Positions 1 to 62,868 of a stretch of 64,000 nucleotides of DNA are shown piece by piece; the stretch's first letter is position 1, and each line of letters opens with the position of its first letter. A program made the translations under genes and the position numbers. The stretch is from Muricea muricata (lineage: Eukaryota; Cnidaria; Anthozoa; Malacalcyonacea; Plexauridae), in assembly GCA_963855995.1 (NCBI GenBank), contig OY979728.1, forward strand, positions 3,148,330-3,212,329, given 5' to 3'. Below the pieces are notes generated by a model. It worked only from the letters and a program-made list of their open reading frames with translations. It was not told where the DNA came from and searched no databases.

Positions 1-946
1 TTAAATTCTGGTAAAATCGACATGCCACCATCTGTTTTGCTACGGTGAATTGGAATACAAGTCACATTTTCTCGCTTTTTAACCAGAGAACACATTCTTT
101 AAAGGTAGAACGACGGAATTGATCGTTTGCAATCGACGCCATCTTTGTTGACGTTTGAAACACATGGCAACCACAAAGTATCTATTCATTATATCTGATC
201 CTATCGAGCCATACATCTTTAAAGTATCATTCATAATACGCTAAAACTAACGATGAAATAGTAAATTGACACAAGTGTTTCGCTGTAAACAGCTGAAGTA
301 ATCTGCAGAGTCAACCAAGATGGCGCCCAATCACACGAAATGACGTCATGTGCAAACCAAGAATAGTGACAAAATGCATCAACTATAATTTAGTGGCATT
401 ATTACGAAACTTATTTTTGTAAAACGTTCAATCCTACATGTTATTTTGTTTTGTTTTTAGAAATATCCAAATCCAAATGTTAGAGACGAAATTTCCAGGC
501 GTTAAGGTATTGTTTCTTTAAAAAATATTGTCGACATTTACCATATTTTTACCTGTTTTTTGACTCGAAAATTGACTGCCAAACTCCTAGATATTCTATT
601 TAATTATTTTGTTGAATGTATTTGATATCAATGTTATTTCAATCCAATTTTTTTCACTTAATTTGCTGTCTTTTCTTTTTCATTAACGAGAAATATCTAT
701 TAAATCCTCTTTGATCCCTCAATAATAAGTATCTTGTTTTCTACTAACTTGCACATTACCACTACTTTCTATTACAATGTCGTGTCTTCTTATTCTTGTG
801 GATTGTTGTTTTGTGGGTCTTGCCGTCCAGGATCGTTCATTCTTTTCTCTTCTTGTGCGTTTTTTTCACATCCCATCACCCTTTGCAATAGTAGAAAGAA
901 TTAAGTCATGAGATGATAGTTACGAATAATTTATAAACTATAACAT

Positions 947-1068
947 GATAAGTTTCTTGTACGTTTGCATGGTGAATACAATATACTTATTAAGCTTTGT
1001 GGAAACACCACGTAAATTTATTATTGCAATAATAAATTTACGTGGTGTTTCCACAAAGCTTAATAAGT
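947..1068. mobile_element. MITE insertion A, left arm only
   Basis: A 122-bp insert, absent from the mirrored site near 13,080-13,110, is flanked by a 12-bp direct repeat (aaactataacat at 935-946 and 1,069-1,080). Its right part, 984-1,069, is an almost perfect hairpin with a 'ccacgtaaatttatta' stem. The duplicated target and clean absence in the other arm mark it as a transposition made after the palindrome formed. Confidence 0.8.
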
Positions 1069-1083
1069 AAACTATAACATATT

Positions 1084-1226
1084 AAGCACTTATTGGATGA
1101 GGTTTTTGTGATATGCGAAATTATCAATGTCGAGGTAAGAGTTATCAGCCGAGCCGAAGGCGAGTCAGATAACTCTTACCAAGACATTGATAATTTTGCA
1201 TATCACAAAAACCGAATCCGATAATT
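1084..1226. repeat. Long hairpin present in both arms
   Basis: The sequence from 'ggatgaggtttttgtgatat' through 'gaggtaagagttatc' is repeated in reverse complement up to 'cacaaaaaccgaatccg'. The stem is over 60 bp with a small loop that includes 'agccgagccgaaggcgag'. The same hairpin is at about 12,935-13,075 in the right arm, so it predates the inversion. Confidence 0.7.
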
Positions 1227-1444
1227 GCTTTATTATACATTGTAAGTCTTTTTCCTCGAGCAATTGACGAATTTCGCCTTCGGAAGAGCTTAAAAAGCAA
1301 GATGCCATAACATGAAACAGAAAATATCGAAAAAATGTTGTTGCCATGCCAACCATTGATGCCAACGAATACCGCATACTGTAATAATCTGCACCGTAGG
1401 CTCAACATGCAGATAACTCAGTTATCTGCTAGCAGATAACTGAG

Positions 1445-1668
1445 CCATAGAATAAGAATACATAGAAGGGCCACTCGCGTCGGAGCCTTTGGAGTTTTTG
1501 AAGCCGCGCATGTCGCATTACGCACGTTATTAGCATTTTCTCAGCCAGTCAATTGCATTTTCTGGCCAATAGGAATGCTGAACTGGCTGGTGGCAGCCAG
1601 TAAACTGCATAAACATAGTGTGACATGTTGCACTGCTGAGTGGCCCTTCTATGTATTCTTATTGTATG
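1445..1668. mobile_element. MITE insertion B, left arm only
   Basis: A 224-bp insert has roughly 28-bp terminal inverted repeats (core 'aataagaatacatagaaggg') and a candidate 6-bp target duplication, actgag. The empty site is seen in the right arm around 12,715-12,750, where the cagataactgagttatctg sequence is uninterrupted. Confidence 0.8.
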
Positions 1669-1759
1669 ACTGAGTTATCTGCAGATTGTGTGATAGTCGC
1701 ATTTATCTGCATACAACTGACCAATCACAACGCATAAAACAACTGCAATGTATAGTAAT

Positions 1760-2126
1760 TAACACTTATTGACTGAGACCGAGGGAAACAGTATGTTTTG
1801 TGGACCAGAGACTGTCGATGTCGAGGGTCCACAAAACATACTGCTTTCCCGAGGTCTCAGTCAATAAGTATTTTATTATATACTGAGTGCCAAAAGAGAA
1901 GAAAAGTACCACAAATCAATCAAACATGTGTAAAAAGGATTACCTTTTACCTGACATGGCTACGTGAGGCTTTGTGGATTTGTTGTCTACCGGTGAATAA
2001 AAGTAATGTCCACCGCTTAGCTACGTTGCCAGGGAGACAATAGAATTTCTCCACTATCACGTGATACGTTCTTAACCAATAAGAAACAGGAATAAATGAA
2101 CTTTGACACTCAGTATATTAAAAAAT
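1760..2126. mobile_element. MITE/hairpin insertion C, left arm only
   Basis: About 365 bp are absent from the right arm at about 12,620-12,640. The insert holds a long hairpin at about 1,761-1,869 (stem including 'cttattgactgagacc') and a second inverted pair, tatactgagtg near 1,878 and cactcagtata near 2,113. It therefore looks like a small element plus a nested hairpin. Exact borders are uncertain by a few bases. Confidence 0.65.
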
Positions 2127-3869
2127 AGTATTAATTAGGCCGGCCAAATTATTGTGTAAGCTGTTAATATGAAATTTTTTTATTAAAATCTCGAGAATCA
2201 TTAATAAATCGTGAGCAAAACACAAAAGAAAATCATAGCCGTGAAGGAGTCTTTATTTCTCACACGCACACAACTTGCAGCTACCCTAATTTATGAATTT
2301 AGATTAAAATATCTCGAGAATTAAACAACACGTAAGGAATGTGTAAATTCTTAAAGCTCTTTCGAACAATAAAAATTAATATCTCGCACTAATCTCTCTC
2401 AAAAGCTCTCTCAAATTTATTGCCGATATCTCTTTGAGAATTACTGTGCACGTGAAATGTAACTTATATCAAAACTAGCTTACTTCAAGCTGTTTGGGAA
2501 TCAAGATTTTACGTGTCAACGAGATCAAATATGAATCTAAGATGGCAGACAGCGCATTAAATTTCTATCTTTACGACCAACTCCCCAACGAAAGGCTTTA
2601 ATTCGCTCGAAAGTCGAATTTTGTTTTTTTTTTTATTGTTTCAGGTAGTGAAAGATCCTGTGTGCTTTTTACAGTACTACCGACACTAGCAACGTTAGTG
2701 CGAGATGTTAATTTTTATTGAAACAAAAGCTGAACTGCTAAAAAAATGGAAACGACAAGATAAAATAAAAAAACTTACTTTCACTCTATCTTTGGATCTT
2801 CTTGGCTTCGGTTGTTCTCGTTTCATCATGCTGTTTATGGTTTCATCTGGTTGGCGCACTCTCTTCATGGAGCATCAAGGCGGTCCAGTAGGTAACTAGC
2901 TCACTCGTGTCCAGTCAACCAACATAAAATAAGGAGAAAATTAATGTTACAAAATATTTTAGAATATAGGACACTAAGCTTTAATTGAATTGACTTTAAC
3001 AAACCGTACATTGTGACAGTATTTGCATCTTAACATCTGATGGAGACGGCTTGTGATTTACTTCTTATGTCGATATGAATTCTTTCCCATCTTGTTGCAT
3101 CATTAGTTGATGGTTGTTGTATTCACTTTTTACTTGGCATTCTTTGAAAAAAAAATTACGATGTTCAGAAAACTGTTTACAAGATAAGCAAAGAAAACTA
3201 CGTTCACAAGCATTAGAGAGGACTAAGTAATTATAATAGGCGTGACAGGTCACAGAGGTTAGTCGACGAAGAAACTCATGGACAAATTCCCGGCATGATG
3301 ATACCCCGATAGCAAGAAATACAGCAAGTGTAGAACGTGTACGTGTGAGCTTAAACTGTATGTATGCAACTCCAAGAAAAGCGCAACACAAAATGGCGGA
3401 ATTTAAAGACATTTCTGGTGTCATTTCCAGTTCCCTAACTTTCGCGGACAAATATATTTATATATTTTTCTCAAATTTTTTTGAAGTAAATCTAGATAAA
3501 TTTTGTGAATAAACAAATTAAAAAAAGTATTGCCCACGTTAGGAAACTAGAACGGGCGCCCAAGAATGCCCACAATTTCTCCAATCTGGATTATATTTAT
3601 TGATTGCGCAAATGACTGATAAAAAATAAGAGAGTAATAAAATACCAAATGGTTTCCTCTTCAAGATAGTGTCATACATGCGCGCGGCATTTCGGGATAT
3701 TTGGGAAAACTCATGTTGAAGTTGAACCTAAGGCAACATGCCAAGTACATGGATGACGCTATCCTGCTCAGGAAACTATTTAGTAATTGTCTTACAAAAT
3801 GATGACAGTGAAACACAAGTCAACGCCACGGCATTTAAATTTCTCGTGTAGGATTGTTTGATCCTGCAC

Positions 3870-4110
3870 AGTAATAGCCAAGTGGCGCAATCGTCAGAGC
3901 AAACGCCTATCACATGTGAGGTCGTGGGTTCAATCCTTACTTCAGACTCGTGACACCCATGTGAGGAGTTAGTCAGTCGTGGGTTTATTCCGGGTACTCC
4001 GGTTTGCGAATGTTGACTGGATGGTTAAAATTGTAAAATATCAGTAATCACCGGAACACGGGTACTTGACTAAACTGCTGACGATGAGGCGGAACTCATA
4101 ATGAATTAAT
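3870..4110 (+). mobile_element. tRNA-derived SINE, left-arm copy
   Basis: A polymerase III promoter is visible: box A TGGCGCAATCG at 3,883-3,893 fits TRGYNNANNNG, and box B GGTTCAATCC at 3,927-3,936 fits GWTCRANNC, about 34 bp apart as in a tRNA gene. A central region with 'ccgggtactccggttt' follows near 3,990, and that block recurs in SINE fragments at about 16,385-16,480 and 49,610-49,700. The head is not a functional tRNA because no acceptor stem or anticodon arm can be closed convincingly. Confidence 0.8.
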
Positions 4111-5811
4111 GAAAATGTGTTTCACTGTAGTTATCATATAATGTAATTGCCAAGCTGAATGAATAATTCTCCAGTAACTACGTCATATGAATAACTTACA
4201 ATTATGAGAGTAGTGGGGGGGGGGGGGGGCAGCATAAAGATTGAAGTAGTGTCAAGGAAGGGGTACTACCCTGACGGGTACTAGGCGAAGAAGTAGAGTA
4301 AACAGGAGGAAGAAGATGAAATTGGAGTAAATAAGGGGGATTGGGGTAAAGAAGGGGAGAAGCAGGATAAAGAAACCAGTGGAAGGGGGTGCTATCCTGG
4401 AAGGAGTACCCGGGAAAGAAGAGGGTGAACAGGAGGAAAAGTAGATTGGAGTACAGAAAGGGGAAATTAAACGGATCAGGAAATTCAGACTTGCAATTCA
4501 AATGAAAGGCAGCTCATTGGTCATGTAAACACTCGTTAAATCATGGTTCTCGCTTGCCTTTAGCTTGGAATCATCTTTGAATTTGAACTGAAAGTCTGAA
4601 TTTGCATGTTTCTTGTATAGAGTGCAGTGTATCAGAACAGAAGAGGTTTTGAAGAAAAAGAAAGGAAGAATAAAAGTAAGTTAAAATTTGTAAAGAATAA
4701 TGAAAAAACTATTGGTACAGCACTTGATACATCATGATAATCATCATTATAAACTCTCTATTAATCCGGGGGGGGGGGTATAATAGAGAATTTGCAATAA
4801 TAGTAAGTATATTGTAATATTTGGGTTTTTACCACTAAATCCTCTTGAAAGTTCTTTTTGGCTGTGGCTTCTCTCATCACAGTTGTCACGTGCTTGTCTT
4901 GCAAAATCTCTGGAATATCTATAACGTGAAGGTCAATATTTAAGATTAGAAAAATAGAAACCGTAAAATAGAAAGAAATTTAAATCGTGGCGAATACTTT
5001 TTACGGTCTTGCTGGCATGACAAAAAGAGAGTATAGATTTATTAGATCATGTTGATTTATCCTTTATCTGAACTATATTTAACTTAGATTTTAAAATAGA
5101 TTTCACCCTGGTAAGCAGACCGAATGGTTTTTCAAACAAGATAAGATTTAATGACTAAAACGTGCACAGAATAGTTAGAGAATGCTTACATGTCGAATAA
5201 GAATCCAATACTTTTAATGTCCAACTACACAATAGCGATTTTCGTTGCATTTCTAGACTGGAGAAGAAGACGACGCCATTTTGATTTTGATTTCTCCCGA
5301 CAACGGCAGATTTGTCTTCGCAATTTTTTTCCATTTCTTCGTCGTTTTAGCTCCAATTTGCTCGTTGTGTTTCTTTCGTACCTTCCTCGCCATTTCCGTA
5401 CAATCAATGGACATTTATACTCAAGATTAAGACTGTACTGAGACTTTCAAAATGTTCGTCAGGAGACATAAAAATCGAAGCTTCTTCTTCGGGTTGCAGA
5501 AGCAAATGACGTCAGACGACCTTTGTCCGCCAGCAAATACCCGTATGTATAACATTCAATGATCTTTTTAGGAAGCTGAAAATCAGTTTTTATTGCGCGA
5601 ACGAAATGTTTTTGCCATTATTTCTTACTCAGGTCTTTGTTCTACTACTTTACTTCCAGTTTAGTTAGGTAACTTGCCAAAAGAAACGCCTGTAAGGGAC
5701 AATTTTGCATTTTTTTTTTATTTCGATGCTGATGAAGAAGAGAAGACTCGTTAGAGCTTTCATTGGCAAATATCTTTCCCTCCGTGGCCGAGAGGTAAAG
5801 ACAACTGTCTT

Positions 5812-5912
5812 GACTTCGATTTTGGGTGGATCGAGGACCGGTCCAGTTCAACTGAGTTTGGTAAGAATTTAATTCTGATCGGTGCTCGATCCACCCAAAA
5901 CTGAAGTCAAAG
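5812..5912. repeat. Hairpin in inner palindrome arm
   Basis: The motif 'ttttgggtggatcgag' and its complement 'ctcgatccacccaaaac' form a stem of about 40 bp. The mirrored copy lies near 8,820-8,940. More hairpins follow at about 6,055-6,130 (gaagact...agtcttc) and 6,136-6,200 (gtagtggtttagctagctaaaccactac type). Confidence 0.6.
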
Positions 5913-7077
5913 CTGGGCGTGGAGTGCAGGAAAACACTAGGCAGTACCGCGAGGCCAAGGAGGCAAACGTTATTTTCCTAGTGTTGTTAACTAATATTTA
6001 AGCAAATTTCATTAACTTGACTGTTGGGGACAGACCTGTAGGGTTGGTGCATTGAAGACTTCTCGTCGTTATTTCCCTTCGTTCAAGAAGACAAGTTGTC
6101 TTCGTCGAGAAATAACAACGAAAAGACTTCAAGACACCACTAAACCACTACACTTTAAAGCTACAGTGTAGTGGTTTAGCTAGCTAAACCACTACACTGT
6201 GCCAATAATATATGGCTGACTTCTTCCTAACACTTACGGTACGACCATGGATGCGCAAAGATGCGCAAACACATTAAAGCCTTGAAAGCAAGTGTTTTCT
6301 TTTAGGAAAGAATCAAGGACGACAACGCTTACTAAATCAAAGCCGTCTAGTCATGTTTTAAGTACTTCAGCTATGTTTAACGATCTTTTACCAGATCTTT
6401 GCAAGAGGAAAAGTAAAATTTTGCATCATTATTATTAACTTTCCGTCAGTCGTTTCTTTCTTGATCGAGCATTATATGCCATTGTGTTCAGTGTCCTTGA
6501 TATAGGAGCCATATACTTATGGCCTTGGGTTTAATTCCCAAACACTGAATGGCAGTGTTTTGCTCTTCCAATGAGATAACAAGATGGCACTGTAGAACGC
6601 GTGGTTTTATATAAGCTACGAGCGTCAAGATATCCTTGATAGGTAACTATTGATCCTACAATGGCACTTATGTTCACTGCCAATAGGAACGTTTTCAACT
6701 CACAGCTTGTACATAATGGATTTTATAGGTTGTGTCACAAGGAAACTGCAGTTCGGTCGTAAAATCAACTTGTTTTCAAGGTTGCCGGGTTTTAAACATT
6801 ACTGACACTGTTAATGTTGTAGCTCGGAATTGTAAAACAACGGCGGCAATGCAGTTTTCTTGTGCCATAACCATATAAGCTACGACCGCCAAGCTTTATC
6901 CTTGATAGGAAAGAATTGATCCCACCAACGACATTTGTATTCTCTACCGATAGGAACGTTTGAGACTTACAGCTTGTACATAACGCATTTTATCGGTGAG
7001 TCGTAAAACCAACCTGTTACTGCTCAGCAAACTACCATTTCCCTCGATCAACGATAGTCGATGAAGCTTGGCGCTCG

Positions 7078-7652
7078 AGTTGTTCAGCTAAGTTAAACGA
7101 TCTTTTATGGCGAGGTCTTTTCAAGAAGGCATGAAGCATAGATGCGCAAACACTGTACAGCCTGTAAAGAATATGTCTTCTTTCGGGAAAGAGTCAAAGA
7201 CGATAACGCTTATTAAATCAAAACTGTGTAGGCATGTTTTAAGTTGCTCAGCTATGTTTAACGATTTTTTATGACCAGGCCTTTGCAAGAAGGAAAGTCG
7301 AAGTTTGCATATACTATTGACTTTCCGTCGGTCGTTTCTTTCTTGATCGAGCTTTATATGTCATTGTGTTCAGTGTCCTTGATATAGGAGTCATGTATTT
7401 ATGGCCTTGGGTTTGATTCCCAAACACTGCATGGCAGTCTTCAGCTCTTTCAAGTAATAAGATAACTTTGGAACAAGATGGCAATGCGTTATTTACTATA
7501 TGCCTGGTCATGCTGTAACTAATCATGTAGTATATTCTACAAACCTTAACTCAGAACGTTGGCTGTCAGTTTCTATTCGTGGTTGCTTTGAAACATTGCA
7601 GATACTGCTAACCTGGCTATAACCTGTAAAATGCTTGGTTTTACACAACCTA
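7078..7652. repeat. Spacer of the 14-kb palindrome
   Basis: This 575-bp loop is not unique sequence. Positions 7,141-7,440 are a diverged direct copy of 6,255-6,562 in the left arm; both contain a 'gatgcgcaaac' start, a 'cagtgtccttgatatagga' stretch and a 'tttgattcccaaacactg'-like end. The spacer therefore looks like one unpaired unit of a short tandem series, left over when the flanks were inverted. No gene is visible. Confidence 0.8.
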
Positions 7653-10600
7653 CGAGCGCCAAGCTTCATCGACTATCGTTGATCGAGGGAACTGGTAGTT
7701 TGCTGAGCAGTAACAGGTTGGTTTTACGACTCACCGATAAAATGCGTTATGTACAAGCTGTAATTCTCAAACGTTCCTATCGGTAGAGAATACAAATGTT
7801 GGTGGGATCAATTGTTTCCTATCAAGGATAAAGCTTGGCGGTCGTAGCTTATATAAATGATAAAACCACCCATTTTACAGGTTATGGCACAAGAAAACCG
7901 CATTGCCGCCGTTGTTTTACAATTCCGAGCTACAACATTAACAGTGTCAGTAATGTTTAAAACCCGGCAACCTTGAAAACAAGTTGATTTTACGACCGAA
8001 CTGCAGTTTCCTTGTGACACAACCTATAAAATCCATTATGTACAAGCTGTGAGTTGGAAACGTTCCTATTGGCAGTGAACATAAGTGTCCATTGTAGGAT
8101 CAATAGTTACCTATCAAGGATATCTTGACGCTCGTAGCTTATATAAAACCACGCGTTCTACAGTGCCATCTTGTTATCTCATTGGAAGAGCAAAACACTG
8201 CCATTCAGTGTTTGGGAATTAAACCCAAGGCCATAAGTATATGGCTCCTATATCAAGGACACTGAACACAATGGCATATAATGCTCGATCAAGAAAGAAA
8301 CGACTGACGGAAAGTTAATAATAATGATGCAAAATTTTACTTTTCCTCTTGCAAAGATCTGGTAAAAGATCGTTAAACATAGCTGAAGTACTTAAAACAT
8401 GACTAGACGGCTTTGATTTAGTAAGCGTTGTCGTCCTTGATTCTTTCCTAAAAGAAAACACTTGCTTTCAAGGCTTTAATGTGTTTGCGCATCTTTGCGC
8501 ATCCATGGTCGTACCGTAAGTGTTAGGAAGAAGTCAGCCATATATTATTGGCACAGTGTAGTGGTTTAGCTAGCTAAACCACTACACTGTAGCTTTAAAG
8601 TGTAGTGGTTTAGTGGTGTCTTGAAGTCTTTTCGTTGTTATTTCTCGACGAAGACAACTTGTCTTCTTGAACGAAGGGAAATAACGACGAGAAGTCTTCA
8701 ATGCACCAACCCTACAGGTCTGTCCCCAACAGTCAAGTTAATGAAATTTGCTTAAATATTAGTTAACAACACTAGGAAAATAACGTTTGCCTCCTTGGCC
8801 TCGCGGTACTGCCTAGTGTTTTCCTGCACTCCACGCCCAGCTTTGACTTCAGTTTTGGGTGGATCGAGCACCGATCAGAATTAAATTCTTACCAAACTCA
8901 GTTGAACTGGACCGGTCCTCGATCCACCCAAAATCGAAGTCAAGACAGTTGTCTTTACCTCTCGGCCACGGAGGGAAAGATATTTGCCAATGAAAGCTCT
9001 AACGAGTCTTCTCTTCTTCATCAGCATCGAAATAAAAAAAAAATGCAAAATTGTCCCTTACAGGCGTTTCTTTTGGCAAGTTACCTAACTAAACTGGAAG
9101 TAAAGTAGTAGAACAAAGACCTGAGTAAGAAATAATGGCAAAAACATTTCGTTCGCGCAATAAAAACTGATTTTCAGCTTCCTAAAAAGATCATTGAATG
9201 TTATACATACGGGTATTTGCTGGCGGACAAAGGTCGTCTGACGTCATTTGCTTCTGCAACCCGAAGAAGAAGCTTCGATTTTTATGTCTCCTGACGAACA
9301 TTTTGAAAGTCTCAGTACAGTCTTAATCTTGAGTATAAATGTCCATTGATTGTACGGAAATGGCGAGGAAGGTACGAAAGAAACACAACGAGCAAATTGG
9401 AGCTAAAACGACGAAGAAATGGAAAAAAATTGCGAAGACAAATCTGCCGTTGTCGGGAGAAATCAAAATCAAAATGGCGTCGTCTTCTTCTCCAGTCTAG
9501 AAATGCAACGAAAATCGCTATTGTGTAGTTGGACATTAAAAGTATTGGATTTTTATTCGACATGTAAGCATTCTCTAACTATTCTGTGCACGTTTTAGTC
9601 ATTAAATCTTATCTTGTTTGAAAAACCATTCGGTCTGCTTACCAGGGTGAAATCTATTTTAAAATCTAAGTTAAATATAGTTCAGATAAAGGATAAATCA
9701 ACATGATCTAATAAATCTATACTCTCTTTTTGTCATGCCAGCAAGACCGTAAAAAGTATTCGCCACGATTTAAATTTCTTTCTATTTTACGGTTTCTATT
9801 TTTCTAATCTTAAATATTGACCTTCACGTTATAGATATTCCAGAGATTTTGCAAGACAAGCACAGACAACTGTGATGAGAGAAGCCACAGCCAAAAAGAA
9901 CTTTCAAGAGGATTTAGTGGTAAAAACCCAAATATTACAATATACTTACTATCATTGCAAATTCTCTATTATACCCCCCCCCCCGGATTAATAGAGAGTT
10001 TATAATGATGATTATCATCATGTATCAAGTGCTGTACCAATAGTTTCTTCATTATTCTTTACAAATTTTAACTTACTTTTATTCTTTCTTTTTTTTTTCT
10101 TCAAAACCTCTTCTGTTCTGATACACTGCACTCTATACAAGAAACATGCAAATTCAGACTTTCAGTTCAAATTCAAAGATGATTCCAAGCTAAAGGCAAG
10201 CGAGAACCATGATTCAACGAGTGTTTACATGACCAATGAGCTGCCTTTCATTTGAATTGCAAGTCTGAATTTCCTGATCCGTTTAATTTCCCCTTTATGT
10301 ACTCCAATCTACTTTTCCTCCTGTTCACCCTCTTCTTTCCCGGGTACTCCTTCCAGAATAGCACCCCCTTCCACTGGTTTCTTTATCCTGCTTCTCCCCT
10401 TCTTTACCCCAATCCCCCTTATTTACTCCAATTTAATTTTCTTCCTCCTGTTTACTCTACTTCTTCGCCTAGTACCCGTCAGGGTAGTACCCCTTCCTTG
10501 ACACTACTTCAATCTTTATGCTGCCCCCCCCCCCCCCCCCACTACTCTCATAATTGTAAATTATTCATATGACGTAGTTACTGGAGAATTATTCATTCAG

Positions 10601-13600
10601 CTTGGCAATTACATTATATGATAACTACAGTGAAACACATTTTCATTAATTCATTATGAGTTCCGCCTCATCGTCAGCAGTTTAGTTAAGTACCCGTGTT
10701 CCGGTGATTACTGATATTTTACAATTTTAACCATCCAGTCAACATTCGCAAACCGGAGTACCCGGGATAAACCCACGACTGACTAACTCCTCACATGGGT
10801 GTCACGAGTCTGAAGTAAGGATTGAACCCACGACCTCACATCTGATAGGCGTTTGCTCTGACGATTGCGCCACTTGGCTATTACTGTGCAGGATCAAACA
10901 ATCCTACACGAGAAATTTAAATGCCGTGGCGTTGACTTGTGTTTCACTGTAATCATTTTGTAAGACAATTACTAAATAGTTTCCTGAGCAGGATAGCGTC
11001 ATCCATGTACTTGGCATGTTGCCTTAGGTTCAACTTCAACATGAGTTTTCCCAAATATCCCGAAATGCCGCGCGCATGTATGACACTATCTTGAAGAGGA
11101 AACCATTTGGTATTTTATTACTCTCTTATTTTTTATCAGTCATTTGCGCAATCAATAAATATAATCCAGATTGGAGAAATTGTGGGCATTCTTGGGCGCC
11201 CGTTCTAGTTTCCTAACGTGGGCAATACTTTTTTCAATTTGTTTATTCACAAAATCCATCTAGATTTACTTAAAAAAAATTTAAGAAAAATATATAAATA
11301 TATTTGTCCGCGAAAGTTAGGGAACTGGAAATGACACCAGAAATGTCTTTAAATTCCGCCATTTTGTGTTGCGCTTTTCTTGGAGTTGCATAGATACAGT
11401 TTAAGCTTACACGTACACGTTCTGCACTTGCTGTACTTCTTGCTATCGGAATATCATCATGCCGGGAATTTGTCCATGAGTTTCTTCGTCGACTAACCTC
11501 TGTGACCTGTCACGCCTATTATAATTACTTAGTCCTCTCTAATGCTTGTGAACGTAGTTTTCTTTGCTTATCTTGTAAACAGTTTTCTGAACATCGTAAT
11601 TTTTTTTTCAAAGAATGCCAAGTAAAAAGTGAATACAACAACCATCAACTAATGACGCAACAAGATGGGAAAGAATTCATATCGACATAAGAAGTAAATC
11701 ACAAGCCGTCTCCATCAGATGTTAAGATGCAAATACTATCACAATGTAAGGTTTGTTAAAGTCAATTTCAATTAACGCTTAGTGTCCTATATTCTAAAAT
11801 ATTTTGTAACATTAATTTTCTCCTTATTTTATGTTGGTTGACTGGACACGAGTGAGCTAGTTACCTACTGGACCGGCGTGATGTTCCATGAAGAGAGTGC
11901 GCCAACCAGATGAAACCATAAACAGCATGATGAAACGAGAACAACCGAAGCCAAGAAGATCCAAAGATAGAGTGAAAGTAAGTTTTTTGATTTTATCTTG
12001 TCGTTTCTATTTTCTTTAGCAGTTCAGCTTTCGTTTCAATAAAAATTAACATCTCGCACTAACGTTGCTAGTGTTGGCAGTGCTGTAAAAAGCACACAGG
12101 ATCTTTCACTACATTAAACAATAAAAAAACAAAATTCGACTTTCGAGCGAATTAAAGCCTTTCGTTGGGGAGTTGGTCGTAAAGATAGAAATTTAATGCG
12201 CTGTCTGCCATCTTAGATTCATATTTGATCTCGTTGACACGTAAAATCTTAATTCCCAAACAACTTGAAGTAAGCTAGTTTTGATAGAAGTTACATTTCA
12301 CCTGCAAAGTAATAGTTGAAGAGATATTGGTAATAAATTTGAGAGAGCTTTTGAGAGAGATTAGTGCGAGATATTAATTTTTATTGTTCGAAAGAGCTTT
12401 AAGAATTTACACATTCCTTACGTGTTGTTTAATTCTCGAGATATTTTGATTTAAAATCATAAATTAGGGTAGCTGCAAGTTGTGTGCGTGTGAGAAATAA
12501 AGACTCCTTCACGGCTATGATTTTCTTTTGTGTTTTGTTCACGATTTACTAATGATTCTCGAGATTTTAATAAAAAGATTTCATATTAACAGCTTACACA
12601 ATAATTTGGCCGGCCTAATTAATAAACTATTTTACTATACATTGCAGTTGTTTTATGCGTTGTGATTGATCAGTTGTATGCAGATAAATGCGACTATCAC
12701 ACAATCTGCAGATAACTCAGTTATCTGCTAGCAGATAACTGAGTTATCTGGATGTTGAGCCTACGGTGCAGATTATTACAGTATGCGGTATTCGTTGGCA
12801 TCAATGGTTGGCATGGCAACAACATTTTTTCGATATTTTCTGTTTCATGTTATGGCATCTTCCTTTTTAAGCTCTTCCGAAGGCGAAATGCGTCAATTGC
12901 TCGAGGAAAAAGACTTAAAATGTATAATAAAGCAATTATCGGATTCGGTTTTTGTGATATGCAAAATTATCAATCTCTCGGTAAGAGTTATCTGACTCGC
13001 CTTCGGCTCGGCTGATAACTCTTACCTCGACATTGATAATTCCGCATATCACAAAAACCTCATCCAATAATTGTTTAATATGTTATAGTTTATAAATTAC
13101 TCGTAACTATCATCTCATGATTTAATTCTTTCTACTATTGCAAAGGGTGATGGGATGTGAAAAAAACGCACAAGAAAAGAAAAGAATGAACGATCCTGGA
13201 CGACAAGACCCACAAAACAACAATCCACAAGAATGAGAAGACACGACATTGTAATAGAAAGTAGTGGTAATGTGCAAGTTAGTAGAAAACAAGATACTTA
13301 TTATTGAGGGATCAAAGAGGATTTAATAGATATTTCTCGTTAATGAAAAAGAGAAGACAGCAAATCAAGTGAAAAAAATTGGATTGAAATAACATTGATA
13401 TCAAATACATTCAACAAAATAATTAAATAGAATACCTAGGAGTTTGGCAGTCAATTTTCGAGTAAAAAAACAGGTAAAATATGGTAAATGTCGACAATAT
13501 TTTTTAAAGAAACAATACCTTAACGCCTGGAAATTTCGTCTCTAACATTTGGATTTGGATATTTCTAAAAACAAAACAAAATAACATGTAGGATTGAACG

Positions 13601-14022
13601 TTTTACAAAAATAAGTTTCGTAATAATGCCACTAAATTATAGTTGATGCATTTGGTCACTATTTTTGGTTTGCACATGCCGTCATTTCGTGTGATTGGGC
13701 GCCATCTTGGTTGACTCTGCAGATTACTTCAGCTGTTTACAGCGAAGTACTTGTGTCAATTTACTATTTCATCGTTAGTTTTAGCGTATTATGAATGATA
13801 CTTTAAAGATGTATGGCTCGATAGGATCAGATATAATGAATAGATACTTTGTGGTTGCCATGTGTTTCAAACGTCAACAAAGATGGCGTCGATTGCAAAC
13901 GATCAATTCCGTCGTTCTACCTTTAAAGAATGTGTTCTCTGGTTAAAAAGCGAGAAAATTTGACTTGTATTCCAATTCACCGTAGCAAAACAAATGGTGG
14001 CATGTCGATTTTACCAGAATTT
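7653..14022 (-). repeat. Right arm of the 14-kb palindrome
   Basis: This is the reverse complement of 1-7,077, shorter because it lacks three insertions present in the left arm. It carries its own substitutions; for example the frame mirrored at 10,252-10,572 differs at several residues from that at 4,202-4,501, and the long frame at 3,065-3,451 is broken here by a stop near 11,391. It ends inside a MITE at 13,982-14,211. No gene is visible. Confidence 0.93.
10715..10885 (-). mobile_element. tRNA-derived SINE, right-arm copy
   Basis: This is the mirror copy of the SINE at 3,870-4,110. The reversed box B ggattgaacc lies at 10,819-10,828 and reversed box A cgattgcgcca at 10,862-10,872. It differs from the left copy just 5' of box B ('catctgatagg' here), so the two have diverged independently. 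Confidence 0.8.
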
Positions 14023-14211
14023 AATGCGGGTATCAATCAAGAATAGCAGTGAAATGATATTTAACATAAGCTAATGGACGGAATTTTAACACAAGTGACA
14101 AAATAACCTATCTGTCTGTTCCTCAAACGAGGTTAATTTACCTTAAGTTTTTAAACGATTTCAGACCGCAAGGCATTCTGGTAAAATCAACACCCGCCAT
14201 CTTTTTGCTAC
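13982..14211. mobile_element. MITE with gtagcaaaa termini, copy 1
   Basis: A 230-bp element begins gtagcaaaacaaatgg and ends ccatctttttgctac. The inner TIR part includes 'gtcgattttaccagaat' and its complement. The same family is at 19,673-19,907, and a partial end is at 1-43. The outer edge of the 14-kb palindrome visible here falls within this element. Confidence 0.75.
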
Positions 14212-14713
14212 ATTAAATTCCCAAGGGAATATATCATTTCTTTGTTTCTTAGCTAATTTGGTTCATACATCCATGCAAATCAGTAGGATCATTATATTTT
14301 TTTGTGCATTTTAAATTCCCATGGGAACACAGCATGCTTTGTTTCAATGGTGATGCGTCTGTTTATGGTAATTACTGCATAATGCGAATCCTCTTTGATT
14401 ATTAATATGATAAGTATCTTGGTGCTTTCAGATTTGTTTTGGTAAGCAGGAACAATGAAGTCATTGTTTGTGTACACTAAAGCAAATTACGAAGGTGGTT
14501 TGAGAGCAGCTGCGAGGTACCATGCAAATGAAGGCGTTTCGGTTAAATAAGTGTGAGAATTACGGCATTAAAAATTGCATGTCATCTACACTTAAGGATA
14601 TAAGTTGCCAAAAAAAAAAACAACTTTAGTGAATCTGTTGAGTTTCAATTGCTTTTTATTTTTGCCTAATTCTCATGCTTATTTGACCCAGCCTTGGACT
14701 TTGGTAAGTATCA

Positions 14714-14955
14714 GGGGCCGGTTGTATCAAAGGCGTTTAGCTTAAACGGTGGATAAGTCAAAAATATGAAACAAGTTTCCATGTTGTATAAACAAACCAG
14801 CTGAAGTTATTTGACCTGAGAAGAACAATTATATATAAAACTAAATATTTATTCTATTTCAACTCATAATTTCGGTTCCGTACTAGGTGTAAAACTGATT
14901 TTTAAATTTCACTTATCCACCGTTTAAGCTAAACGCCTTTGATACAACCGGCCCC
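14714..14955. mobile_element. MITE with ggggccggttgtat termini
   Basis: A 242-bp element has TIRs of over 40 bp that start ggggccggttgtatcaaagg and continue with a 'gcttaaacggtgg' stretch. The interior is AT-rich and non-coding. The same terminal sequence occurs next to a transposase fragment near 47,178, which suggests a Harbinger-type source. Confidence 0.75.
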
Positions 14956-15790
14956 AGGTTTATATTTACTCCGGAACAGTTAACACAACGAAAAGCCCAT
15001 GCCCATTCAGCTAAGGTTTTACGTTTGAAAATTCAATCAAAAACTCAGTCTAAGTGGGTTTAAGTAGCTAGAGATAACGTAATTTATCTTTTTATTTTGC
15101 TTTTTTGTTTATAACGTAATTTATTAGCTAAATGTATGGACTGCGAGGGTGTGCGCCGTGTGTAAGTTGCATGGGATTAGGTTTATTAAAGGAATTAAAA
15201 TTTTTGAAAGTATGCTTAAAAACCAAAATCTGTCGTCACTTCTAACAAAACAGTTAAGAGTAGGTTTCAACATCAACTAAATTGATCTATACTATTAACT
15301 AAGAAAAATGCGAATTAAGTTTTATATTTTGCAAGCAAATTTTAAATAGAATTCTCACCTGTTTTTATGTACGAGCTTTTTCTGTTTACGTTTGATCTAA
15401 AATATCCAAATAAATTGCATTTAAAATGCATACTTTACCGAAATTTTAACTCTTTTAATTTTCGAAATTGGGTGGCAGTCGGGGTGGTGGTGGTGCATGC
15501 GGGTTTATCAGCTGTGAGTGACTGTGCGATGGTGAGGAAAGTGAAGGTAACGAATGGAATGCAGGAGCTTAGAACTGAGGAAGACAGCTTAGAACTGAGG
15601 CAGGTAGGCAGTTGGTAGGATCAGCGGGGGGCACTTGACATTTTGGCTTTGGGAATCAAATTTGCATGCTAAGTACTTAAGTCACTAACGTTTGTTGTTT
15701 TAATTTGTTAGGTACGCGCGGCTGCTCTCTAGGGAAGATCAACTTAGCAATTGTATTAGCACTTGCAAAGTTGGTCTTCTCTTTGCCGGC

Positions 15791-15906
15791 TACCCCGGCC
15801 AGTTCTCCGAGTGCTACTTCCACCGTGAATAAGTAGAAGTACTTGTACTACATGTATAAGTACTTCTACTTAGGTGGAAGTGGCACTTGGGGAGCTGGCC
15901 GGGGTA
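15791..15906. repeat. Imperfect 116-bp hairpin
   Basis: taccccggcc at 15,791 pairs with ggccggggta ending at 15,906, and 'aagtagaagtacttgtac' lies near the loop opposite 'tataagtacttctactta'. A separate perfect 20-bp palindrome, tcaattcccatgggaattga, follows at 15,931-15,950. The stretch 14,956-15,790 between this and the preceding MITE shows no recognisable gene. Confidence 0.6.
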
Positions 15907-16384
15907 GGGGGATTTTTTTTATTCAATTTCTCAATTCCCATGGGAATTGAATTTTTAATTAAAAAGGGGTCACAAGTAAATTTTGTAAACAATTTATTGA
16001 AAAAATTTGTAAAGATTACATACAATTTGAATAACAATAAAAAGAGATTAACTACCACACATTGTACTTATTAAAATAACAACAGAAGAAAACAGAACAT
16101 GGCAGAGAGAACAATAACACAAGTGAATGAACAAAGTCCTAAAAAACTTGGGTCTTTTCAACGTAAGTAAATGTTTATACTTCAAAATATATTATAACAA
16201 TGAAACAACTTGAAGTGATAAATTTTGAGAGTTTTCAAAGGTTTACCCAGCATATAACGAGTTGTTTCACAATTACAAAGAAAAACATGTGGCTCAAAAC
16301 ATGCAACTGATAGAGACGACGAGAAGGCTTAACAAGTCTAAGTAGAAAGGTTTTCAAAAGTTAGTCACATTTTTATAACCATAT

Positions 16385-16480
16385 GTAACTACCCTGTCAA
16401 CTCTCCCAGTGGGAAGAACCGGAGTACCCGAAGAAAACCCACGAGTTTTGGCGGAGCGTTGACCAACGCTTTTTCAAATA
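16385..16480 (-). mobile_element. SINE fragment
   Basis: On the minus strand this contains 'cgggtactccggtt' preceded by 'cgtgggttttctt', matching the central block of the SINE at 3,870-4,110. No box A or B head is visible, so it is a truncated copy. Confidence 0.55.
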
Positions 16481-16760
16481 CAGCCAGCCTCACAGAAGAA
16501 AGGTATTTTTGTCAAAAGAAAAATATCATTTTTAATCAATTGCGCTTTTATAAGTCAGAAAAAATACATGCACGAATTACAAACGAATTTTGATGGCTTT
16601 GAGACATGTAACGTGGGCACATAATTCTTCCTAAAAATACTTTTTTGTACTCGAAACAACCCTTCAAAACGTCGAAAAACAACGAAGAAACGATTTTTTT
16701 ATAAATTCCAAATTGACCAAGCTGTAATGTTCGGAGCCACATTTTTCTTATTGCGTTTCT

Positions 16761-17279
16761 AACCTGACAATGTGAAATGCACTAAACATTGCTACCTTTA
16801 TTTTTTTTAACAAAAAATTCAAAAATACATAGAATAAAAACCAAGCATTTTTAGAATATTGTGTGTAGCACGACATTTTTCAGAAACCAATCTCTTACAC
16901 TTTTCTTTGCATAACAGTGCATGCGATCTATTTTTCGCAAAAAAATACAAAGAAAGTCTCAGACATCTCATTTTTCTGGTGGGCACAAGAACAGAAGCTT
17001 TTTGTTCAAATTGTGATAATTTATTTGAGATAACTTTGGGCAAAATTCTATTTTTCATTGAAAACAGCCGAAAAATCAATGCTTTGGCTTTGCCCAGCAA
17101 CTAATGAAGTCACTCGATAGTGAAGTTGCTTTATATACAATTGATAGTTTCAGTGTTAAAGAGACCAAAATAAAAGTAGAAATACATAACTTAGATTGAT
17201 CTTGGATTGAAAAGTAAAAAATTTATTCGAAGAATCAATTTAAATTTAGTCTTTTTGGAAGGTACCATTGTCAGGTTAG
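16761..17279. repeat. Possible small element with 14-bp inverted ends
   Basis: ctaacctgacaatg at 16,761-16,774 is the exact complement of cattgtcaggttag at 17,266-17,279. The inside is AT-rich and has overlapping antisense short frames that look incidental. The remainder of 15,950-19,500 is AT-rich sequence in which I see no gene. Confidence 0.3.
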
Positions 17280-19526
17280 GAACATATCTCTTTGAAGTAT
17301 AAATTCATCTTTACTTACTTGTTGAAAAGACTATATTCAAGAGCCATGTAAACCTGTTTTCTTATATTATTATTACCACCCAAGTATTACAAAGTGGAAT
17401 ATTTGAAATGTAAACTTGAACTGAAGCAAAGGAAATGCGCATACAAATTCAGAAATATTTCAATTGCCAAAATACAAATTCACCACAACCAAACAATATA
17501 AAAAGTTCCAGTAAAAGGCAATATGTTGTAATTTTAATTAAGAAACTTATAAAGTAATAAATCATACAGGAAACACAAAAGAAATCATTTTCTCATCTTA
17601 CAGAATCGGTATTTTCAAAATCACTTTGCTATAGATCTGATGTATAAAATTGACGAGTTTCACAAGCCATTTACAACATTCGCATCTGTGTATGTCAGAT
17701 ATCTCGCCTTCAGCTTGGGTTTGTATATCCAATACAACCCGGTCACTTGTATTGTAAATAGTACAAATCAAAATTGTTATCAAATCAAAGTCTCAAACTA
17801 ATTTAAATTATTCTACTCCATATAATGCCAGACAGTTTTACTTTTTCTCAGGAAAGACCTTATGTTCAACAAGGTAAATTTGGCATGTTAATTAAGAAGT
17901 CTGTAAAATTTGAAATTGCATAGTATCAACTAAAAGCTTCATGTGACTTAAAACTTTTTCAAGTCGATGTAATACGAAGAACTCTGGTAAAGTATTTACT
18001 ATATCCAGGCATCAATAGAAAACTTTTAAAATTAAAAATTGTAGTTACTTATACTTATTATTGGCCAACATCTGTACTGCTTGTTTATCTAGAAAATCTG
18101 GCATACTGTCAATTTTTTTAGTCCAAGGAAACTTTTTTACTCTTAAATTCTTACATCCGCCACATCTTTTCTTTGCTAATAAAAAGAGCCCACAGAATTT
18201 ATTTGGCAAGTTGTGGTTTTCTTTTTCATTTAAGATATGTAATTAATTGATAAAGTTAAAGAACAACTGCATCAGTTCATCTCAATTCCAAACAAGTTCC
18301 ACTTTGTAAACAAAAGACAATATGCTAGCTTATTTTGTCCTTAATAAGTAGTTCATCTTAAAGTTTGAAAGTCAACATTCTAGTACAAAATCACAAAGTC
18401 TGTATCTAAGATAAATTACCAGTAGTATAAAATATTACAAAGTATTTTTTTAACTTTAAAGGGTCCAATATAACATTGAGAACTATTGTGATTTTCAAAT
18501 GAACTTTCCAAACTTTCAAATGAACACTCAAAGCCAGCTTAAACAAAAGATGATTGAGATAGTAAACCAGGAAATAACATAGGTGTCGTAATTTTTTATC
18601 AAAAATATGATATAGTGCATATAACAGAAACATTTCAATTAAAAAGTAGAAATATATTTCCTGTGGTTAGTTTTAATTGCTACATATATTGAAATTTTAG
18701 TATAATAATGGATGTTTTTGTTTCTGGCAAAGTCACCTCAATCTCCTTATGTTTAACCAACATTACAAAGTCAAATAATGACAAACACGAATGATTAAAC
18801 ACAAATTTATATTTTAATGGGTAAAAATAAATATGTCCAAATTAGTATAATCATGCATATAGGTCTAGTAGGGTACCAATTTTTAGAAACAGAATTGTGT
18901 TGTTTAGAGGCATAACATATAAAATTGCTAGATTTGATATTTCAGTTTTTTAAGAAAGCCTTTTGTATGTGTTTTCATGAACTCTTGGGCCATAATTCAA
19001 TTGATTTGAACCAAATAAGATTCTAACTTTCTTTTAAAACACAGTTCATCATTATTTGACTTTTTCTAAGATTAAAATGCTTCTGGAGCACATGAGATTC
19101 CACGGTATGTGTACCCACAAAATAATCGTCAAATTAGGTGAGAATGAAACCGTCATGTCCAAAATTATACCGTCCCAAATTGTCCCATATTCAATATTGT
19201 ACATGCAATATTCCAATACCTTTAACAATTTCATTTTTCATAATCTGCCAGTTGTTGAGAGGAGGTTAAGCATTTTGTCAATCTACAAACAAATTTCAAA
19301 GAATTCTATTGAAGATAGATAACTGAAATGGTAAACAAACTGCAAAAGATAACAATGCAAGTGGTTGTGTAAAAACTAAAGACCACGTAAAGTCGGCCAT
19401 TCTGTACAGTGTTTGGATTTGACAGTTTGAATTTTAATTGCCTCAAGAAAAGTCTAAAAGGCATTAAAAACATAACATTCCTTGTTCTTTTTTAACATCC
19501 CGACCTTGCACGACTCCCACATCCTG

Positions 19527-20063
19527 CTCCGTCTCCTCCTATCCACCTCCCACCCTCAAGGCCCTGTCACACGGTGCAATTTTTCTTGCACTTGTAACTG
19601 CTCCGTCTCCTTCTCTATCCACCTCTTACCCTTAAGGCCCTGTCACACGGTGCACTTTTCCTTGCATTCACCGTAGCAAAAAAGATGGCGACATGTCGAT
19701 TTTACCAGAATGCATTGCAGGTATCAAGAAAGAATACGTGGGAAAAGATGACAAGAAACAAAGCTACTGGATTGAAATTTTAACACAAGTGTGAAAATAA
19801 CCTATTGTCTTCTGTCTGTTCTTTAAAAGACGTTAATTTGCCTTTTTAAACAATTTCAGACTACCATGCACTCTGGTAAAATCGACATTTGCCATCTTTT
19901 TTGCTACAGGGAAAATCTACTCTTAAGTAAATTTGTGACAAATGTTTGGTACGTTAAAAACCCCAGCAAACTGTGATGGAAACTTGCATTTGCCAATTTT
20001 ACATCTCCCAATAGTAGAATTGCATTTCAAGTTGCAAGAAAAATTGCATTGTGACAGGACCTT
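19527..20063. mobile_element. MITE with nested MITE
   Basis: The outer element starts aaggccctgtcacacggtgc at 19,558 and ends with the complementary tgtgacaggacctt at about 20,063. Its left end is tandemly duplicated with a flank of about 78 bp (19,527-19,600 and 19,605-19,670). The MITE at 19,673-19,907 is inserted inside. Confidence 0.65.
19673..19907. mobile_element. MITE with gtagcaaaa termini, copy 2
   Basis: A 235-bp element begins gtagcaaaaaagatggcgac and ends gccatcttttttgctac, the same family as 13,982-14,211. It is nested in the element at 19,558-20,063. Non-coding. Confidence 0.75.
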
Positions 20064-21297
20064 TATTCTCCAGTGTTCCCACCAACCTGTTCCCACCATT
20101 AGATGGAAAGTCCTTTTTTCACTACATTTTAGTAATTAGGCTACCCCCCTCCTCTCACAAGTCTGTAATCGCCTGACGAAATCAATTGGTCGACAGTCCA
20201 AGGCATGTTTTGTAATCGAAATTCACAAAATTAAAATTAAATTGCCTTTTTTCAATAAATTTGAACCAGAACCAACTCTATACATAGAACTGTCTCAGCA
20301 TACTTTCTTCGACAATCTCAACAATTTAAGACCTCATTCAGTTTCTATAGCGGATTTCATGGTATTATTATCGAACCAACTTCAACTGAAAACGGTAGCC
20401 TTAATCTTACATGCGACCATAGCCATGCTTGGAAAGCACAAACTTACAATACTCGAATATTGTACTTATTTCCAGTCTGATCTCTCAAAAATCGATCTCT
20501 ATGCACAATCTAAGTACTTTGCTACAAATAATCATAGAAAATAAAGCATATTACCTTAAAAAAAGTTAGGATGCATGAAAATTTAGAGGACTTTCAAGGA
20601 GCAAAATCTTCGAGCTAGAGCAAAATTTTGAAAAAATAGTATTCGGAAAATCTTCGAGCAGCGTCGGAAACCGACGAAATCCGAGGAACGCCGAAATTAC
20701 CACTTTGTGTCGACATGCTCCGAGCAAGTTCCTTGTTCCTGATTCAGAAGAAGCTGTATTGCTCGTAAAGAGTTAGAGGAATTTTAATCAGGGATGAAGG
20801 AGGTAACTTGAAGTTGCAGGGGCACTACGTTATAAACCACGCTTTTCCAGGGTATTTTTCCACTGTTTTATCTTTAAAAATAGCACTATAGAAAATTGGA
20901 GGGGGGACATAAGCCTCCAGTGCTGGAGCTTTCTAGGCCTGTGATTTTAATTGTTCTCAATCATTAGCCGGACACCCTACAGAATCTCATGTTTCACATG
21001 GCAAGGCCCAACGTACGTTAGTCAGTTTTGAAACATTTTTCTGCTCTAAACTGATCTTTTGGCGAGTAGAAGGGGGGTTAAAAATCTCACATAATCCGTT
21101 CGACCATATGAATTCATTTGAGCGCCAAGACTGAGACATTACGGATGGATGGAGTACCAGGACAAAAAAATCAAATTATCACTGCCTGGCGACTTCAAGC
21201 TGCAACTGTTATGAAGTATTAAGTTTTTAATTCTGAATGGGTCCTTGTAATGGATGTTTCTGCACACCGCTTTCCTATAGTATATGTGGCATACTAC
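20064..21297. other. Interval with no recognisable gene
   Basis: The longest frame here (20,242-20,544, plus strand, 100 codons) resembles no family I know and has no clear splice or promoter context. The rest is AT-rich single-copy-looking sequence with a short run of cttcgag words near 20,600-20,700. Confidence 0.5.
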
Positions 21298-22160
21298 TAT
21301 GGAAAGCCATAGCTGTCTTAAGTGATAAAACGTCATTTCATTAGGTCCTTTGTACATTATATACGGTGCTTTAAACATGACATGCGGTGCTTTGAGTATT
21401 ATATGCAGTGCTTTAAACATTATATGCGGTGCTTTGAGCATTATATGCGGTGCTTTAAGCATTATATGCGGTGCTTTAAACATTATATGCGGTGCTTTAA
21501 ACATTATATGCGGTGCTTTAAACATTATATACGGTACTTTAAACATTATATGCGGTGCTTCGAGCATTATATGCGGTTCTTCGAACATTATATGCGGTGC
21601 TTCGAACATTATATGCGGTGCTTTGAACATTATATGCTGTGCTTTGAGCATTATACGCAGTGCTTTCATCATTATACGCAGTTATTTCATCATTATACGC
21701 GGCGCTTTCATCATTATATGCGGTGCTTTCATCATTATACGCGGTGATTTCACCTTTGTACGCGGTGCTTTCACATTATATGCGGTGCTTTCACCTTTAT
21801 ACGCAGTGCTTTGAACATTATACGCGGTGGTTTCAGCGTCATTATACTCAGTGAGCCAGTACCTTTGGTCAGCGTTGTGGAATGTTACACGATTCTGCTA
21901 TACGTCATGTCATCAAGAATATCTAAACACTCATCGAATATTCATAGGGCGATCACGTGTCATTTCCTGCTTCGAAATTTACAAGTTGAGCGCAGTTATA
22001 AAACGGTAAAATATATAAGACTTTTCTGGCGTTTTAAATCGAAAGTAAACCCAGGGGGTTTGAAATATGGAACAAATACTGCAATCTTTAAATTTGGGGA
22101 CTTTGCGTGGCCGATTTGAAGCACAGTGAATAGAACCGCAGGCAGTCTTAAATTTAATGG
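21298..22160 (+). repeat. Left arm of 2.85-kb palindrome with 21-bp array
   Basis: From about 21,345 to 21,835 a 21-bp unit, close to attatatgcggtgctttaaa plus one base, is repeated about 23 times with drift toward 'cattatacgcggtgctttc'. About 320 bp of unique sequence follow. The whole arm reappears inverted at 23,308-24,150. Because 21 is divisible by three, the array gives long open frames with a seven-residue period in several frames; they are by-products, not a gene. Confidence 0.9.
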
Positions 22161-22164
22161 GAAA

Positions 22165-23305
22165 AAAATTGAAAAAAAATTTGGGAAAAAAAATTTGAAA
22201 AAAATTCGGGAAAAAATTTTGAAAAAAAATTTGGGAAAATTTTGAAAAAAAATTTGGGAAAAAATTCGGAAAAAAAATTTGGGAAAAAAATTTGAAAAAA
22301 AATTTAGGAAAAAGTTTTGACAAAAAAATTTTTCCCAATTTCTTTTTCAAAATTTTTTCCAGAATTTTTTTTCAAGATTTTTTCCTGAAAAATGAATTCA
22401 TGAATTATTCATGAATTATTCATGAATTATTCATGAATTTCCCAAATTATTTTCCCAAATTTTTTTTCAGAATTTTTTCCCAAATTTTTTTTTCAAAATT
22501 TTTTTCCCAAAATTTTTTCAAAATTTCCCAAAAAAATTTGGGAAAAAAATCTTGAAAAAAAATTCTGGAAAAAATTTTGAAAAAAAAATTGGGAAATCAT
22601 GAATAATTCATGAATATTTCATGAATAATCATGAATAATTCATTGAATTTTTCAGGAAAAAATCTTGAAAAAAATTCCGGAAAAAATTTTGAAAAAGAAA
22701 TTGGGAAAAAATGTTTTGTCAATTTTTTGCCAATATTTTTGTCAATTTTTTTTTCAAAATTTTTTCCCAAATTTTTGGTTCAAAATTTTCCCTAATATTT
22801 TTGTCAATTTTTTTTCAAGATTTTTTCCCAAATTTTTTTCAGAATTTTTTGTCAAAGTTTTTTGTCAAAATTTTTTCCCGAATTTTTTTTCAAATTTTTT
22901 TCCCAAACTTTTTTCAAAATTTTTTCCCAAATTTTTTATTCAAAATTTTCCCCAATATTTTTGTCAATTTTTTTTTCAAAATTTTTTCCCAAATTTTTGG
23001 TTCAAAATTTTCCCTAATATTTTTGTCAATTTTTTTTCAAGATTTTTTCCCAAATTTTTTTCAGAATTTTTTGTCAAAGTTTTTTGTCAAAATTTTTTCC
23101 CGAATTTTTTTTCAAATTTTTTTCCCAAACTTTTTTCAAAATTTTTTCCCAAATTTTTTATTCAAAATTTTCCCCAATATTTTTGTCAATTTTTTTTTCA
23201 GAATTTTTTCCCAAATTTTTTTTCAAAATTTTTTCCCAAATTTTTTTCAAATTTTTTTTCGCAAATTTTTTTTCAAAATTTTTTCCCAAAATTTTTCAAA
23301 ATTTC
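22165..23305. repeat. A/T homopolymer core of the palindrome
   Basis: Runs of ttttttcccaaattttttt-like words on both strands fill this core. A 222-bp direct duplication is visible (the 'ttggttcaaaattttccc' mark at about 22,775 recurs at about 22,997). Near 22,385-22,440 and 22,595-22,640 are clusters of 'catgaattattcatgaatt' words in inverted relation. Phe-rich frames read through the core but reflect base composition. Confidence 0.85.
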
Positions 23306-23307
23306 CT

Positions 23308-33775: not shown

Positions 33776-34079
33776 TAGTACTCACTCTTAAGCGCTTAAG
33801 ATAATATTCTCCCTCTCCAAAATGCATGGTTACATAAATGTAGTTGTATACAAGACCGAATTTTGGGAGAGGTGCGCGCCTCCTCTGGGAATAGGAGAGG
33901 TGCACACCTCCCCAAAAAAACCCCCACATTCCCTTACAATTTCTCCAAAATCTGGCCTTGGTTATATGTTAACTCGGTTTTTGCATGCATGCCACTTGAT
34001 TTCTTATCTTTACTTCAAAGTTCAAATGGTCATTGTGGCCATGCATGTGTCTTTAGTATTGGAAAATGTTATTATAAGG

Positions 34080-34322
34080 ATTGAAATTATTGTTTTCAGA
34101 GATTTTATGACTTTGGTTAAATAGGAACAAATTTTGTCATTGTTTAACCAAGCCTATTATTACACGAATTATTATGTATTTAGTATTACGAATTATTGTG
34201 TCTTTAGTGTTGGAAAATGTTATTATAACGGCTGCTGTATTGTTTTCAGAGATTTTATGAGTTTGGTTAAACATGATCAAATTTTTTCATTATTTAACCA
34301 AGCCTATTATTACACGAATTAT
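34080..34322 (+). repeat. Forward-oriented part of the 127-bp array
   Basis: About two units run opposite to the rest of the array, with 'tgtctttagtgttggaaaat' on the plus strand. Orientation switches at about 34,322 within 'cacgaattattgatcatg'. Confidence 0.7.
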
Positions 34323-40650: not shown

Positions 40651-40654
40651 TCTC

Positions 40655-48510: not shown

Positions 48511-62868
<14,358 letters not shown>

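Follow-up and report, generated by a model that had tools for sequence, protein, structure and literature searches.

A gene-free giant palindrome of considerable age has probably been captured by a Helitron-like element and spread through the genome of Muricea muricata by rolling-circle read-through of the element's terminator, the copy from which we started apparently being a pre-capture one. This copy opens the window, the whole 64,000-bp stretch of DNA that was analysed (C13:3,148,330-3,212,329, on a 13.0-Mb contig of the 453-Mb genome, which is assembled in 74 contigs).

The window copy is a gene-free palindrome of 28,570 bp

When 10 kb of left flank was added to the self-alignment, the palindrome extended from C13:3,141,057, 7,272 bp to the left of the window, to window position 21,297, a span of 28,570 bp. 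Its arms of ~14 kb each (left arm, inner part, 1-7,077 on the + strand; right arm, 7,653-21,297 on the - strand) lie in inverted orientation on either side of a loop that measures exactly 575 bp (7,078-7,652, + strand), the length given in the first-pass annotation of this DNA. That annotation had described a 14-kb palindrome with arms of more than 6.3 kb; the inverted arms were confirmed (BLAST E = 0), but the length was not, because the arm match continues up to window base 1 and position 14,022 is therefore an edge effect rather than the palindrome end. The self-comparison of the arms that it had proposed also supported the inverted arrangement, with 95 differences (58 transitions and 37 transversions) over 6,341 columns inside 1-14,024, i.e. 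98.5% identity.

The right arm of the window copy is the odd one among those compared. It lacks three stretches that are present in 13 of 13 other arms, found in the left arm at 934-1,067 (134 bp, holding an 86-bp perfect palindrome), 1,439-1,668 (230 bp, with inverted ends) and 1,756-2,118 (363 bp). A reading of these stretches as young insertions was rejected, since all 13 other arms carry them. The window copy is also missing both of the Helitron-like ends described below, and the site occupied by a Helitron-like leader in other copies is an uninterrupted arm edge on both sides (20,230-20,267, - strand, in the right arm). The outer end of the right arm, T2 (~540 bp; 20,760-21,297, - strand), is absent from captured copies, and the left end of the window copy is cut by a different repeat. 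Adjoining the right-arm end, at 21,298-24,148, is an inverted-repeat element in which ~1-kb arms (93%) built of 21-bp tandem repeats enclose an A+T-rich satellite; similar A+T-rich repeats occur at the end of one of the copies on C5 (C5b).

We found no recognisable gene in the palindrome and no support for coding, in agreement with the earlier statement that it holds no transposase or other recognisable protein. Stop-to-stop frames in 1-14,060 numbered 31, compared with 26 ± 5 in simulations, and yielded no recognised protein; the right arm had 45 compared with 30 ± 5 (~2.8 standard deviations above), the longest being 134 aa. Pfam searches with ten of the longest palindrome frames returned no match above the cut-off, two of the ten giving weak sub-threshold matches (E 0.025-0.084).

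The palindrome recurs hundreds of times with a chromosomal bias

A 42-mer from the loop, allowing up to three mismatches, matched the genome 574 times (276 and 298 matches on the two strands; control, 0). Thus, the genome search for further copies suggested in the first-pass annotation revealed hundreds of relatives. In searches with the loop and with the outer arm (window 1-900), the best 40 of 1,667 and the best 40 of 1,593 candidates scored, respectively, were all printed at 100% identity. The 100 exact loops listed were distributed as none on C1 and C2, 2 on C3, 15 on C4, 28 on C5, 22 on C6, 20 on C7 and at least 13 on C8. Among the matches listed, exact loops are therefore absent from 196 Mb (C1, 124 Mb; C2, 72 Mb) and frequent on the smaller contigs C4-C8, whereas C1 and C2 have many of the short leader-type elements. 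Both arm boundaries were in place in 59 of 78 classified loops, a set made up of those listed exact loops that the junction and edge listings covered. By a rough estimate (574 loops × 59/78 with both arm edges × ~29 kb, extrapolated from exact matches on C3-C7), the family totals 12-13 Mb, amounting to a few per cent of the genome.

The ends belong to a short Helitron-like element that inserts without duplication

The captured units are bounded by the ends of a short non-autonomous Helitron-like element, which begins 5'-AACAAG and finishes in a 3' hairpin (...ACTCCGCCTCGCCTACGGCAGGCGGAGT) that folds at -13.1 kcal/mol (z -5.5). The motif ACTCCGCCTGCC is found at a distance of 24 bp from the 5' end, and the 3' end carries it in inverted orientation. 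Genome-wide, a 40-mer from the 3' terminator occurs 1,234 times and a 36-mer from the 5' end 1,188 times (controls, 0). On C1, exact ends formed 26 right-order pairs 1.2-5.8 kb apart and one pair otherwise arranged, with 0.125 expected by random placement. Since the same two ends bound these short elements, they define a short element family.

No target-site duplication was found in any of the seven two-ended copies, which come from 23 loci: three of six on C1/C2 (L060, L061 and L064), two of seven full copies (C10 and C5a) and two of ten end-sampled copies (C4_6.7 and C5_15.4). The terminator is followed by AA and then A or T in 20 of 20 junctions (three internal, some nested), and the base flanking the 5' end is A, T or C. 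One copy, at C4:6.69-6.72 Mb (read at its ends but not in its interior), is nested in another copy of a leader-type element. When its flanks at C4:6.69 Mb were joined at AACAAG/GGAGT, 640 bp aligned with the same element elsewhere at 619 identities (97%) and with no gap. Therefore, this unit inserted precisely at A|AA, without duplication or loss, and the AA after the terminator is target sequence. In this single empty site the target is A|A and not A|T, and the termini, 5'-AACAAG and GGAGT-3', are not the canonical 5'-TC and CTRR-3'. A 3-bp duplication (TTA/TAA) had fitted two of four giant copies and not the other two, and was dropped after the C4 empty site.

Helitron Rep domains are abundant in the genome (the best 150 of 352 candidates scored), and no Rep gene with AACAAG/GGAGT ends, as expected of an autonomous partner, was found among the Rep matches examined. 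A Rep gene near such ends on C2 was considered as the partner and rejected, the segments being copies of one repeat that carries short elements. These segments, L077 and L078 (C2:26.01 and 25.09 Mb), are 99.1% identical, each with two short Helitron-like elements, and lie 9-12 kb from Rep matches.

Captured copies have the anatomy expected of a skipped terminator

Seven copies were read over their full length (window, C8, C10, C5a, C11, C6 and C5b). All seven are palindromic, and the window loop shares 99.65-99.83% identity with the other six. The two captured copies read whole are C10 and C5a. The C10 unit (30,253 bp) consists of a 1,923-bp leader that starts AACAAGACGCC and has a hairpin terminator at its end, a 27,198-bp core palindrome directly after it, and 1,132 bp with a second terminator; C5a follows the same complete plan of leader, terminator, palindrome and second terminator in 30,209 bp. 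The bypassed leader terminator is intact and adjoins one palindrome arm. C5b has an internal leader-arm junction like that of C10 and C5a and an A+T-rich repeat on the far side, and a search for its 5' end found none. In C8, C6 and C11 both sides carry the terminator (3' end), and the leader is absent.

Genome-wide, there are 172 leader-arm junctions (control, 0) and 354 uninterrupted arm edges. The commonest form, seen in 42 of the 78 classified loops, has a leader junction on one side and a plain arm edge on the other. The remaining 36 have an edge on both sides (15), one edge only (16), one leader junction only (3), a leader on both sides (1) or a mixed arrangement (1).

A leader with an intact terminator, followed by foreign DNA and a second terminator, is the anatomy of a skipped stop, and we infer from it a rolling-circle process in the following order. 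Transposition would have started at the 5' end of a short Helitron-like element lying at one arm edge; replication would then have continued through the element's still intact terminator and the whole 27.2-kb palindrome, to end 1.13 kb further on at a second terminator. The captured unit would subsequently have spread to the leader-arm junctions, at least 172 in number. Several observations sit less easily with read-through capture, namely the lack of a Rep gene with these ends, the intactness of the bypassed terminator, the non-canonical termini, the 36 of 78 loops of non-standard form and the count of two captured copies read whole.

The palindrome arose before it was captured

The 36-mer marker of T2 occurs 12 times in the genome: two matches are in the window copy, two on C10:12.67-12.70 Mb (facing, 31 kb apart), seven on C2 and one on C1. 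The copy at C10:12.67 Mb shares the left flank of the window copy (a 2,699-bp match at 97.4%). Compared with the window arm, the stretches read on C2 match at 81-88%, and the centre at C2:17.50 Mb is itself palindromic, with arms 82-87% alike over the aligned parts and ~1.4 kb inside the loop. From this diverged C2 palindrome we conclude that the palindrome was already in existence when it was captured. We read the window copy, which has no Helitron-like ends and one arm of an older type, most readily as a relative from before the capture.

The arms recombine within copies

The 14 arms of the seven copies were compared over 11,191 shared columns. The two arms of a copy differ at 14, 14, 20, 20, 66, 77 and 118 positions, compared with a mean of 72 and a minimum of 30 between copies, and only 37 of all 135,135 arm pairings were as good as the true pairing. 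Arm divergence is <0.2% in four of the seven copies. Arms are nearest relatives within C8, C6, C10 and C11 (support 0.97-0.999) but not within the window copy, C5a and C5b. In C5a and C5b, between-arm differences are 0-3 per kb in the outer 6 kb and up to 26 per kb inside. The window copy contains an identical tract of 1,494 bp (5,201-6,695, matching 8,057-9,552 of the other arm), a local homogenisation; when the differences were placed at random 20,000 times, no run of that length appeared. Loop orientation relative to the leader was one way in 31 of the 42 standard-form copies and inverted in 11. These patterns demonstrate that arms recombine within copies, leaving homogenised tracts and sometimes an inverted loop, and we infer that they do so by repair.

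In some copies the palindrome continues into the flank, for ~190 bp in C8 and at least 4.6 kb in C6; C11 shows no continuation and its flanks are unrelated. In some copies arm recombination has apparently substituted a second-terminator side for the leader side, sometimes together with flanking DNA. Fold-back repair on the other arm would give such flank palindromes, and an assembly fold may still account for that of C6. A more tentative idea is that the rolling-circle intermediate would be a 13-kb single-stranded hairpin, in which case rounds of transposition might copy-correct the arms and so both propagate the 27-kb palindrome, a kind of sequence that normally ranks with the least stable, and keep it near-perfect.

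Alternative origins of the family

The palindromic architecture would also fit a foldback transposon whose long terminal inverted repeats are the substrate of a DDE transposase, with the Helitron-like pieces as later insertions. T2-type copies (window, C10:12.67 Mb and C2) do show that the palindrome was there before the Helitron-like ends; the original termini of these copies lie beyond the sequence read. Such an element should, however, carry the same inverted terminus on both sides, and the commonest form is asymmetric (42 of 78). The seven two-ended copies have no fixed-length duplication, the empty site was entered precisely without one, and no transposase was found in the parts read. We regard this origin as unlikely. 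The giant non-autonomous foldback element proposed in the first-pass annotation is thus upheld in its architecture, which is multicopy, gene-free and foldback, but not in the ends of its commonest form, where the 5' and 3' termini differ from each other, the 3' one forms a hairpin and target-site duplications are absent. Slightly less probable again is a spread of the palindrome by segmental or ectopic duplication, with the Helitron-like ends as passengers. The left flank shared by the window and C10:12.67 Mb copies, the arms of different lineages in some copies and the long flank palindrome of C6 are consistent with it, whereas the sharp recurring ends in unrelated flanks, the precise C4 empty site and the 172 identical-type junctions speak against it. 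An inverted segmental duplication, also considered in the annotation, fails for the family because the copy number excludes a single event, although this may be how the window copy spread.

An assembly fold, either of two haplotypes or of one molecule with its complement, was the leading rival on the window data alone: the arm differences there resemble haplotype differences, and the C6 flanks are palindromic too. For the family it is excluded, and overall it is very improbable, given 574 loop matches on both strands of chromosome-sized contigs, a C2 palindrome with the same centre and arms that have diverged to 82-87%, and the unrelated flanks of C11. Read-through capture remains our preferred reading, made somewhat more probable by the C4 empty site.

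Relationship to known elements

Foldback elements such as FB, Galileo and Tm1 have a short middle flanked by long inverted repeats, and their arms recombine. The palindromes described here share all three properties but have asymmetric ends without duplication, and arms many times longer than those of Galileo. Primate Y palindromes are large, unique loci with genes that undergo arm-to-arm gene conversion; they too have arms that are kept alike and spacer inversion, whereas the present family is a dispersed gene-free repeat. In eukaryotic chromosomes, long palindromes are considered unstable. A ~27-kb palindrome that recurs hundreds of times offers many natural replicates for reading and dating events of arm conversion, loop inversion and flank copying.

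Terminator read-through was demonstrated experimentally for Helraiser, ~11.7% of events carrying flanking DNA (PMC4778049), and has been reviewed for Helitrons, which reach 39 kb in maize (PMC6431247). With the Helitron read-through of Helraiser and HelibatN, the captured units share the 3' hairpin terminator, the lack of target-site duplication, the A+T-rich target (PMC4778049; PMC6431247) and foreign DNA between a bypassed and a later terminator (PMC4778049). Here, in contrast, the cargo is a near-perfect gene-free palindrome, the terminal letters are not 5'-TC and CTRR-3', and a Rep partner was not found. Compared with a canonical Helitron, the absence of duplication and the 3' subterminal hairpin agree but the termini and the A|T insertion do not. 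Helentron-associated HINE/DINE-1 elements (PMC4067079) are likewise non-autonomous, with an inverted repeat near both ends (ACTCCGCCTGCC here), a 3' palindrome, internal tandem repeats and no duplication; our elements differ in having no border T-runs, no TT insertion, inverted repeats at other distances from the ends and no endonuclease-type partner found. As canonical Helitron and Helentron-associated features are each matched only in part, we use "Helitron-like" as a working name. What is new relative to known read-through is the cargo, a 27-kb palindrome, which suggests that terminator read-through can mobilise DNA that folds back on itself. Judged by titles beyond PMC4778049, PMC6431247 and PMC4067079, our literature search found none on a palindrome-carrying Helitron.

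Other features of the window

Searches for Rfam families, tRNAs and the telomere repeat found none within the window, and a search of a phage collection gave no match. Two TRAF-zinc-finger/kelch genes, ~91% identical, lie head-to-head at 53,319-58,786, the frame of the second being in broken pieces, and a RING match among the window proteins was below the cut-off. At 40,591-41,576 there is a reverse-transcriptase gene fragment (RVT_1, 29.4 bits compared with a cut-off of 29.6). The window also holds ~24 copies of a 127-bp tandem repeat with 550-bp inverted repeats (92%) on both sides (33,776-37,864), a 743-bp tandem duplication that is 99.5% identical (58,494-59,982) and a perfect (TCAT)n microsatellite that runs up to the window end (63,831-64,000).
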